From Paraburkholderia largidicola (GTDB taxonomy: Bacteria > Pseudomonadota > Gammaproteobacteria > Burkholderiales > Burkholderiaceae): DNA of 64,000 nucleotides. This document shows, piece by piece, positions 61,022-63,676 of this stretch. The stretch lies in the NCBI RefSeq assembly GCF_013426895.1, contig NZ_AP023174.1, forward strand, positions 1 to 64,000, written 5' to 3'. Positions within the stretch are counted from its first letter, which is position 1; every line of letters starts with the position of its first letter. The notes beneath the pieces were generated by a model. That model had not been told where the DNA came from and searched no databases. It saw only the letters and a list, made by a program, of their open reading frames with translations. A program made the position numbers and the translations under genes.

Positions 61022-61630
61022 TTAGCTTTTCTTGACGCGATAGACCGCAAGACTACCACGCCAGTTCACGCCCCATCGCACCTGCTGGCCGCCATGCAGC
61101 ACGACGCGGTCGAGAATCTCGATACCGACTTCCGGCGCGAGCGCCTCGAAATCCTTGATGGTCAACACACGCACATTCGGGGTGTTGTGCCACTGATAAG
61201 GCAGCGACTTCGACACGGGCATGCGTCCCTGCAAAACCGACAGGCGGTGCGCCCAATACCCGAAATTTGGGAACGAAACGATGCATTCCTTACCGACCCG
61301 CACCGTCTCGCGCAGGATCGCGGCCGTCTGGTGAATGGTCTGCAGCGTTTGAGAAAGGATCGCAAAATCGAAGCTGCCGTCTTCGAACAGGCGCAGGCCG
61401 TCTTCCAGATTCTGCTGGATCACGTTGATGCCGTTCTTCGTCGAAGCGAGCACGCCGACGTCGTTGATCTCGATGCCGTAGCCCGTCACTTCGAGTTCTT
61501 CCATCAGCAGTGACAACAGCGAGCCGTCGCCGCAGCCCAGATCGAGCACTGTCCCGCGCGGCTCGACCCAACGGGCGATCGCGCGGAAATCCGGCCGCGT
61601 CGCAAGATAATCGAGAGCGCGCTGGTTCAT
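61022..61630 (-). CDS. metW: Methionine biosynthesis protein MetW
   Basis: A 202-residue class I methyltransferase-like protein with the SAM motif [20 protein letters not shown] (about 27-46). In bacteria with MetX, MetW is required for or stimulates homoserine acylation. Its own methyl acceptor is unknown. The ATG overlaps the metX stop in ATGA. Confidence 0.94.
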
Positions 61631-62772
61631 GCGTTCACCTCTGCAGCAATGCGTTCGTAGTAGGCGCGCATCAGGTTGTGGTAGCGCGCGTCGTCGAGGA
61701 GAAAGGCGTCGTGGCCGTGTGGCGCATCGATTTCGCCGTACGTGACCTGGCGCTTGTGATCGAGCAGCGCCTTCACCAGTTCGCGCGAGCGCGCGGGCGC
61801 GAAACGCCAGTCGGTCGTGAAGCTCGCGATCAGATACTTCGCCTTGGTATGCGCGAGCGCGGCCGTGAGGTCGCCGTCGTACGCTTTGGCGGGATCGAAG
61901 TAATCGAGTGCGCGCGTGATCAGCAGATACGTGTTCGCGTCGAAGTAATCGGCGAACTTGTCGCCCTGATAGCGCAGATACGATTCCACTTCGAACTCGA
62001 CGTCGAAGTTGAAGTTGTAGGCATCCTCCGCGCCTTCCGCGCGGCGCAGCGCACGGCCGAACTTCGCGGCCATGTCGTCATCCGACAGATACGTGATGTG
62101 GCCGATCATCCGCGCGACGCGCAAGCCGCGCTTCGGCTTCACGTTATGCGCGTAGTAGTTGCCGCCGTGGAAGTCGGGGTCCGACAGGATCGACGAGCGT
62201 GCCACTTCATTGAACGCGATGTTCTGTGCCGAGAGCTTCGGCGTCGATGCCACGACGATGCAATGCGCGAGCCGCTCGGGATACATCATGCTCCACGCGA
62301 GCGCCTGCATGCCGCCCAGGCTCCCGCCCATCACGGCCGCGAATTTCTCGATGCCGAACGTGTCGGCGACGAGCGCCTGCGCGTTCACCCAGTCTTCGAC
62401 CGTCACGACGGGGAAGCGCGCGCCGTAGGGGACGCCTGTCGACGGATCGATGCTCATCGGGCCGGTCGAACCGAAGCACGAACCGAGGTTGTTCACGCCG
62501 ATCACGAAGAAGCGGTTGGTGTCGAGCGGTTTGCCGGGGCCGACCATGTTGTCCCACCAGCCGACGTTCTTCGGATCATCCGCGTAGACGCCCGCCACGT
62601 GATGCGACGCATTGAGTGCGTGGCACACGAGCACGGCATTGCTGCGCGCGGCGTTGAGCGTGCCGTACGTTTCGACGACGAGGTCGTAGTTCGCGAGCGA
62701 GCTGCCGTTCTGCAGACGCAGCGGCTCGGAGAAATGCATTGTTTGTGGAGTGACGATCCCGATCGATTCCAT
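61627..62772 (-). CDS. metX: Homoserine O-acyltransferase MetX
   Basis: A 381-residue alpha/beta hydrolase-fold enzyme that acylates homoserine (acetyl or succinyl form), the first step of methionine synthesis. The nucleophile is S151 in [11 protein letters not shown]. The late Asp is near residue 312, and the His is in [11 protein letters not shown]. The start [12 protein letters not shown] matches the family. Its leader carries a SAM-II-type riboswitch, so SAM should repress it. Confidence 0.95.
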
Positions 62773-62845
62773 TCATTCCGCCTTCTGACATGGGGCGGCT
62801 AAATGGTGTCGGCGATGGCGCGGAAGGAGCATGTGCGCGGCTGAC
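62773..62845 (-). promoter_or_regulatory. Expression platform of the metX riboswitch
   Basis: UUUAGCCGC (62803-62795) is perfectly complementary to the aptamer's GCGGCUAAA (62860-62852). CCGCC (62798-62794) also complements GGCGG (62782-62778), which overlaps the metX ribosome site AAGG 8 nt before the ATG. These two pairings exclude each other: with SAM bound, CCGCC is free to mask the ribosome site. Confidence 0.7.
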
Positions 62846-62935
62846 GACCTCTTTAGCCGCATTTATAGTGAACCGGAATGGATGAACTCCATCCGCTGGT
62901 TCGCGCGCCCGCAATCGAGTCAGCAAATCGGCGCG
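62846..62935 (-). promoter_or_regulatory. SAM-II-type riboswitch aptamer in the metX leader
   Basis: On the minus-strand RNA, P1 is CGCGCC (62935-62930) with GGCGCG (62909-62904). The loop begins GAUUUG and ends UUGCGG, near-identical to the GAUUUG and UUGCAG elements I recall for SAM-II. Downstream, AUAAAUGCGGCUAAAGAGG (62867-62849 or so) matches the conserved 3' element ending GCUAAA. Pseudoknot pairs: UUGC (62914-62911) with GCGG (62860-62857), and GACUC (62921-62917) with GAGGUC (62851-62846, one bulge). Unusual: an extra two-part hairpin (62902-62870) is inserted in the linker loop. Confidence 0.8.
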
Positions 62936-63010
62936 TTGTGCAATTCTGGACCGTCAAGAACGGTCAAGCGCAGAGTATAGCGGAAAATGCGCCGCGCCTG
63001 CGTTGGCCGG
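62936..63010 (-). promoter_or_regulatory. Probable metX promoter region
   Basis: On the minus strand, a TATACT at 62979-62974 upstream of the aptamer could be a -10, with no good -35. TTGACC at about 62967 and TTGACG nearby lie between it and the aptamer. Confidence 0.35.
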
Positions 63011-63676
63011 CTACTGCAGGATGAGGCGCAGTTGCGCGTCGGCCTGTTCGATCGGTGCACGCGAGAAGCCGCTGCGCACGAAACGATGCCAGCGTCCGAT
63101 GATGTAGCTGAGCAAAAGACTCGCGCGCGCCACGGGATCGTAGTCGGCGGGCAGGGGGATTGGATTGTGTTCGGCGTGGCTCGACGCGTCCATCAATCCG
63201 AGTCGCAGACACTGCTTGAGCGACGCCTCGACGCGCTCGAGCAGCTGATTCACGCGCTCGGTCAGCCGTTCGTGTTCGCCGACGAGCGCTTCGCAGGTCA
63301 GCACGCGCGTCATGCCGGGATTCTTCGCTGAAAAATTGAGCAACATGAGCGCGATTGCGCGTGCCTGCAGCACGCCGTTCGGCTCTTTCGCGATGATCTG
63401 GTTGATGAGCCCGAAAAGCGTCTGCTCGATGAATTCGATCAGCCCTTCGAACATCTGCGCCTTGCTCGCGAAATGGCGATACAGCGCCGCTTCCGATACG
63501 CCGATGCGCGCGGCCAAAGCCGCCGTGGTGATCTTTTCGTTCTTCGGGGCCTCCAGCATCGCGGCCAGCGTCTGGAGGATATGCACGCGCCGTTCGCCCG
63601 GTTTCAGGCGCGTCGCGCGCGGTGCGGTTGACTGTTCTTCGGTTACGTCCTCGTCATGCTTGCGGATAGGCTGCAT
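63011..63676 (-). CDS. slmA: TetR-type nucleoid occlusion factor SlmA
   Basis: A 221-residue TetR-fold protein. The N-terminal HTH is ITTAALAARIGVSEAALYRH (about 50-69), followed by FASKAQMFEGLIEFIEQTLF and a helical dimer domain. This HTH and length match SlmA, which binds DNA and blocks FtsZ assembly over the chromosome. The ATG at 63676 gives MQPIRKHDED with GGGAC upstream. It follows a nucleotidase gene by 14 nt, as in other Burkholderiaceae. A general TetR repressor cannot be excluded without its binding sites. Confidence 0.87.
   Translation of the reverse strand: MQPIRKHDEDVTEEQSTAPRATRLKPGERRVHILQTLAAMLEAPKNEKITTAALAARIGVSEAALYRHFASKAQMFEGLIEFIEQTLFGLINQIIAKEPNGVLQARAIALMLLNFSAKNPGMTRVLTCEALVGEHERLTERVNQLLERVEASLKQCLRLGLMDASSHAEHNPIPLPADYDPVARASLLLSYIIGRWHRFVRSGFSRAPIEQADAQLRLILQ

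Follow-up and report, generated by a model that had tools for sequence, protein, structure and literature searches.

The window analyzed here, a stretch of 64,000 nucleotides of Paraburkholderia largidicola, carries on its minus strand the genes metX (positions 61627 to 62772; NCBIfam homoserine O-succinyltransferase MetX, 689 bits) and metW (61022 to 61630; TIGR02081 of NCBIfam). The gene upstream of the metX leader is slmA, as identified by a family search. In the sequence, the metX AUG lies at position 62772 and is preceded by the ribosome binding site AAGGCGG (62778 to 62784, minus strand), within which GGCGG occupies 62782 to 62778. Farther upstream, TATACT (62974 to 62979, minus strand) is a possible −10 box; the same hexamer occurs in 86 of the 94 leaders of sufficient length, at most 120 nt before GAUUUG. 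There is no clear −35 box for it, and a promoter scan of positions 62700 to 63100 gave no site on the minus strand. The sole promoter-like and the sole terminator-like site found in that interval lie on the strand opposite to metX.

A sequence-only reading of the window had placed the elements of a SAM-II aptamer, including P1 and the pseudoknot strands, in the metX leader. We find all of them there on the minus strand, and the strands are conserved in relatives. The 5′ strand of P1, CGCGCC (62930 to 62935), forms six base pairs with the 3′ strand GGCGCG (62909 to 62904), and P1 covaries in relatives. It is directly followed by GAUUUG (62924 to 62929), the third strand of the SAM-II triplex, which is invariant in our alignment A4 of 49 elements (the parser required GAUUU or GAUCU, and L131 was omitted). 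The 5′ strand of P2b, AUUGC (62915 to 62911), is extended by G62910, which pairs with C62859. The 3′ strand of the SAM site, GCGGCUAAA (62852 to 62860), is conserved in relatives and doubles as one arm of a putative switching helix. Spacing in relatives also suggests a P2a, with the probable 5′ strand GACU (62918 to 62921) and the probable partner GGUC (62849 to 62846). The window thus has both ligand-site strands of SAM-II, (A/C)UUGC and GCUAAA, with their pseudoknot, and methionine genes, metX and metW, downstream. The pseudoknot element is present in 110 of 110 metX loci (L005 to L114; window included, some genomes represented twice), and the named relatives compared were Paraburkholderia, Caballeronia, Trinickia and strains that are listed under Burkholderia sp.

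An inserted hairpin of 33 nt (62870 to 62902, minus strand; GAACC..GGUUC), which the sequence-only reading had also described, sits in the linker that joins P1 to the 3′ strand. Its fold is stronger than that of most shuffled sequences (z = −3.40; 1 of 200 shuffles as good), and it is kept in relatives with pairs that vary among standard types. Among parsed leaders in the window's group, 103 of 106 have all five outer pairs (the two outermost pairs were fixed by the search pattern, and L253 was unparsed in this count). Pairs 3 to 5 vary among standard pairs; at pair 5, for example, we counted C-G in 67 leaders, U-G in 20, U-A in 16, G-C in one and no pairing in two. Two-sided changes occur at two hairpin pairs in an 18-leader alignment. 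The stretch from P1 to GCGGCUAAA measures 26 to 58 nt in the window's group, and long linkers are found in other families too. In a single-sequence fold the inserted hairpin paired with the metX start, but this pairing was set aside, the hairpin sequence being variable in relatives.

At Rfam's own cut-offs, the 64-kb window gives two tRNAs and nothing else. With relaxed filters, RF00521 (SAM-II) scores the element at 14.0 bits against a gathering cut-off of 36, in an alignment that wrongly places the 3′ half in the inserted hairpin. At E values up to 10, the element is the third of four weak RF00521 matches in the whole genome, matches at this level are also given by all 14 control genomes, and RF01726 (SAM-II long loops) yields nothing in 62600 to 63100. 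The outcome is different with R3, a model built without the window's family from 49 SAM-II elements (35 of the order, 14 from other classes), which ranks the element first in the window (30.4 bits, E = 2e−5; runner-up 11.1 bits). For RF00521 at Rfam's cut-off, the result is literally the one that the sequence-only reading had named as speaking against it, no covariance-model hit. Across the whole genome, R3 gives E = 0.003 for this element and 43.9 bits (E = 2.7e−6) for another before metZ, E values of such custom models being rough by the tool's own statement. The third genomic R3 match (G000:C1:769436, 28 bits, E = 0.01), with long open frames and without GAUUUG, was taken as a probable false positive. 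The R3 alignment puts two P1 pairs in the window's hairpin, as the insert cannot be accommodated by the model.

The performance of RF00521 in related leaders follows the length of the linker. The R1 model, made from 25 Paraburkholderia-group leaders, matched 61 of 300 genomes of the order at E = 0.1, and in the 28 loci fetched from its matches (L117 to L144) the gene beside the element is metX in 22, metZ in four and neither in two. RF00521, run on 20 of these 28 Burkholderiales loci, exceeds its cut-off at the element in seven (best score, 52.0 bits). At E < 0.01 it matches all 11 loci with linkers of 12 to 15 nt and none of the nine with linkers of at least 26 nt. Because it fails on the long-linker loci, the insert, and not missing kinship, accounts for the absent Rfam match: the inserted hairpin hides the window element from RF00521. 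An exception to the linker rule is the metZ element of this genome, whose linker is 16 nt and whose RF00521 score is only 20.7 bits.

Elements of this type are widespread in the order. R2, a broader model with the window in its training set, finds them in 286 of 399 genomes of the order at E = 0.05 and in 141 of 141 genomes of the genus at E = 1. Among the 88 Burkholderiales elements that could be parsed (L120 was lost, as was L152 from outside the class), the next gene is metX in 37, metZ in 37 and another gene in 14. The latter include four genes for a MetH N-terminus (L136, L213, L227 and L228; L136 also by family search) and one metK (L189). Four elements (L196, L197, L217 and L218) precede small look-alike proteins that start with MFDCL or MYDCL and may represent a further member of the SAM-II regulon. 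The genus also has a further SAM-II element (L233, G054:C352; RF00521, 40.1 bits), the next gene of which is neither metX nor metZ.

To the extent that the helices vary, they vary as SAM-II helices would. Across 49 elements, 97.8% of the cells of P1 and P2b are paired (versus 89.7% in shuffled and at most 46.9% in slid alignments), 41 cells have a two-sided change (versus 11.1 shuffled) and the covariation score is 0.275 (versus 0.131 shuffled). There is no excess in the number of pairs with a two-sided change (4 versus 3.7 shuffled) or of further pair types (8 versus 8.9 shuffled) in these elements, and the P2b pairs are invariant, fixed by the parser. P1, directly before GAUUUG, has standard pairs at positions 1 to 5 in 88 of 88 elements (the parser demanded four of the five) and, in several pair types, at position 6 in 75 of 88. 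In P2a, pair 1 is standard in 81 of 81 elements but likewise in every shuffle, and pair 2 (63 of 81 versus a shuffle mean of 55.0, P = 0.003) is the sole P2a pair that beats shuffling, pairs 3 and 4 being no better than shuffled. The pair adjoining P2b, which joins the base that follows UUGC to the one two positions ahead of GCUAAA, is G-C in 88 of 88 Burkholderiales elements and, among 29 elements from outside the class but within the same phylum, which we took to be alphaproteobacterial, A-U in 23 and G-C in six; it was added to the covariation structure after this change had been seen. The prediction of Barrick and Breaker for SAM-II includes a pair that joins the last nucleotide of the loop to a position downstream (PMC2258182).

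Judged by this comparison of sequences, which supports the aptamer architecture, the homology with SAM-II and the conservation of both pairings that would compete in the leader, the metX leader is very probably a SAM-sensing switch of a known type. The SAM-II identity, the extra hairpin and the competing pairing that the sequence-only reading proposed are all supported when relatives are compared. The ligand we infer is SAM itself. The same fold could instead sense a different metabolite from the same pathway, such as SAH; our search brought up no binding measurements on long-linker elements of this clade, and the methionine effect on a metX reporter, as described in PMC8814607, leaves the ligand unnamed. 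Nevertheless, all of the SAM-contacting strands of SAM-V and SAM-II (the U's of the third strand, AUUGC and GCUAAA; described in PMC6061858, the mapping onto our element being ours) are present in the window, and we regard a different ligand as quite improbable.

The second SAM-II-like element of the genome (L175:1536-1675, G000:C2) lies before metZ, with a purF-like frame, named by eye, on its other side. It reads GCGUC-GAUUUG-AUCUCAG-CUUGC-G-GACGC..GCUAAA, has U-A instead of C-G at P1 pair 2 and is equipped with an 11-pair terminator-like stem. The same place is matched, on the strand opposite to metZ, by the Rfam family RF02424 (Bp2_287; L175:1501-1675, G000:C2:2062486-2062660; 127.6 bits). 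Khoo 2012 suggested Bp2_287 to be a cis-acting element for methionine metabolism (PMC3521395), and a table in a review pairs it with the expressed Burkholderia cenocepacia RNA RIT77 (PMC10987360). RF02424 exceeds its cut-off in seven of seven metZ leaders from the genus (L175 and six others) and matches L233 weakly. That Rfam lists a Burkholderia sRNA family at the metZ place could mean that the elements are not metabolite switches at all and represent a conserved sRNA, a protein site or a chance resemblance, and the full 181-nt metX leader indeed folds no better than many shuffles (z = −1.40; 16 of 200 as good). Yet RF02424 lies on the strand opposite to the SAM-II element in eight of eight loci (seven of them above the cut-off), as do all nine that we checked of its ten weak matches in the run on the fetched Burkholderiales loci, and the covariation and gene context are those of SAM-II, which makes such an explanation highly improbable. 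RF02424 marks the metZ leader of this group but is modelled on the opposite strand, and this suggests that Rfam built the sRNA family from the wrong strand of a leader that contains a riboswitch.

The part of the metX leader downstream of the aptamer contains the strand UUUAGCCGC (62795 to 62803, minus strand), a 9-bp complement of the 3′ strand of the SAM site that overlaps CCGCC (62798 to 62794). The sequence-only reading had proposed a two-state switch from this pairing and a masking of the ribosome site by CCGCC. We examined the strand in 107 unique leaders from 132 loci, window included, for which the exact 21-nt string GAUUUG..UUGCGG was required; L119 and L207, two members of the window's family without this string, are outside these counts and do not have this metX platform. 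The UAGCCG core is present in 107 of 107 leaders, the full 9-nt complement in 71 of 107. In 29 others the strand reads UCUAGCCGC, with one pair broken and no compensation.

Pairing of the two strands would form a 66-nt anti-aptamer hairpin (62795 to 62860, minus strand) with a 9-bp stem, which we designate the ON state. This hairpin is more stable than expected (z = −3.84; 0 of 200 shuffles as good), less so in the relative L069 (z = −1.91; 5 of 200), and appears in the consensus fold of 18 leaders with most pairs invariant. Because the switching helix hardly varies, covariation cannot test it. A local competitor (GCGGCU/AGCCGC, 62837 to 62860, minus strand; −8.8 kcal/mol, z = −1.95) is also predicted.

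The predicted OFF-state hairpin extends over the ribosome site and the AUG (62769 to 62806, minus strand; −14.6 kcal/mol), with z values of −2.98 in the window, −2.54 in L066, −2.02 in L069 and −1.75 in L093. In the sequence-only reading, CCGCC was to mask the ribosome site by pairing with GGCGG. A pairing is indeed predicted at this place, but the modelled stem is longer, has two parts and covers the AUG (62806 to 62769); the outer stem over the AUG is our addition. When the aptamer strand is omitted and three pairs are enforced, CC(A/G)U(U/C)UAGCCGCC is predicted to fold on the ribosome site and start, which leaves the ribosome site fully paired in 106 of 107 leaders and the AUG in 100 of 107. 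With the aptamer strand off and no pairs enforced, the ribosome site is on average 0.9% unpaired.

Folding predictions for the choice between the two states depend on the stretch that is folded, since they differ between 6 and 15 nt of coding sequence. With 6 nt, the ON fold is lower in energy than the OFF fold in 105 of 107 leaders (mean difference, −4.0 kcal/mol). With 15 nt and the switching strand present, ensemble folds show no clean ON state: the ribosome site is unpaired at 11% in the window and at 18% in the mean of the 107 leaders, and the mean pair probability of the ON helix in the window is 0.22. The difference in exposure between ON and OFF is above 0.3 in 26 of 107 leaders and below in 81; it is 0.11 in the window, a value equaled by 16 of 300 shuffles. 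The order of transcription could favor the ON hairpin, which would be complete before the ribosome site is made.

Our reading of the leader, to which we assign a probability of about three in four, is that a SAM-II riboswitch shuts metXW off at the translation step. With SAM bound, P1 and the P2 pseudoknot would hold the 3′ strand GCGGCUAAAGAGGUC, and the freed downstream strand CCAUUUAGCCGCC would fold onto GGCGGAAUGAAUGG, hiding the ribosome site and the AUG. Without SAM, the 3′ strand would pair with UUUAGCCGC, which would then be unable to mask the start. As with the ligand, the direction of switching and the translational step are what we infer.

The same aptamer could alternatively act in the metX leader mainly through premature termination of transcription, intrinsic or Rho-dependent, with the start-codon hairpin in a secondary role. 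Leyn 2014 describes terminators downstream of metXZ elements and proposes terminator/antiterminator control (PMC4239095). A terminator-like stem lies within 170 nt of 74 of the 88 Burkholderiales elements, among them the metZ element of this genome; of the rest, seven have a GAGGU ribosome site at the end of the aptamer with the AUG right behind it, and seven have neither by rule, although four of these (L124, L180, L189 and L207) look like terminators by eye. In the metX leaders of the window's group, five or six T within 8 nt directly follow UAGCCGNC in 34 of 107. Against termination in this group, however, only five of its 107 metX leaders have a terminator-like stem, the window has none on the minus strand, and a terminator built from the ON hairpin would regulate a biosynthesis gene with the wrong sign. 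We therefore consider termination an unlikely main mechanism for metX and prefer translational control.

The metX platform of the window's group nonetheless looks like one form of a wider habit. In a set of 80 leaders, a Watson-Crick complement of at least 7 nt to either SAM-binding strand precedes the T-run in 33, versus 3.6 expected from dinucleotide shuffles, a count that was chosen after a weaker one had been seen. The earlier count of the 80, in which G-U pairs were allowed, only the GCUAAA strand was considered and the overlap rule was loosened from 5 to 4, gave 38 versus 38.7 expected for complements of at least 5 nt, 23 versus 11.3 for at least 7 and 11 versus 2.0 for at least 9. The set includes L138, where the ribosome site is direct, L118, which is of the same type as the leader in the window, three leaders shortened by the T-run rule (L130, L204 and L230) and related, non-independent leaders. 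Perfect complements of 13 nt in L200 and 12 nt in L184 link the 5′ ligand strand of the aptamer with the 3′ part of the terminator stretch. On balance we lean toward the view that beta-proteobacterial SAM-II elements work by strand exchange on their SAM-binding strands, in which a platform complement of UCAGCUUGC or GCUAAA would reside in a terminator in most lineages and in a hairpin over the ribosome site and start codon in Paraburkholderia and its allies, and that the metXZ RNA and the place of Bp2_287 belong to the same system.

The window element has been published as the metXZ RNA of beta-proteobacteria, with its ligand left open (Leyn 2014, PMC4239095). It shares with that RNA the gene, the clade (eight of eight Burkholderia by our reading of the table in that paper) and a pseudoknot with an alternative conformation. 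The same paper reports SAM_alpha only in Rhizobiales and Rhodobacterales, and among open-licence PMC papers we found none in which metXZ is identified with SAM-II. The occurrence of SAM-II in beta-proteobacteria is already known (PMC2258182, PMC1273637); a figure legend in Corbino 2005 includes Bordetella bronchiseptica among its abbreviated organisms (PMC1273637). For the Burkholderia thailandensis metX 5′ untranslated region, a lux construct is described that 0.05 mM methionine kept OFF, and the paper refers to unpublished data as confirming the regulation (PMC8814607).

Compared with SAM-II of RF00521, the window element has the same six-pair P1, GAUUUG, (A/C)UUGC, GCUAAA, pseudoknot and downstream methionine genes, but differs in its 33-nt linker hairpin, in the lack of a match by the Rfam model and in the anti-aptamer strand predicted to alternate with a hairpin over the ribosome site and start codon. 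RF01726, the long-loop variant listed for Bacteroidetes and marine sequences, and SAM-V are likewise pseudoknotted SAM-II-like aptamers, although SAM-V probably has its ribosome site within P2a (PMC6061858). A similar arrangement occurs at metA and metZ of Sinorhizobium meliloti, where a genome also has two SAM-II elements, the one at metZ with a terminator and the other translational; there, however, the GAGG ribosome site is in the riboswitch's own platform (PMC9373788), whereas the window would use a separate, partner-swapping strand.

If our reading holds, an RNA element whose ligand has been open since 2014 is given a probable one, and the failure of database scans to find SAM-II in Burkholderia and its kin is accounted for by the inserted hairpin. 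With one aptamer class on two predicted platforms within a single genome, this Paraburkholderia would also offer a clean case for studies of platform exchange.
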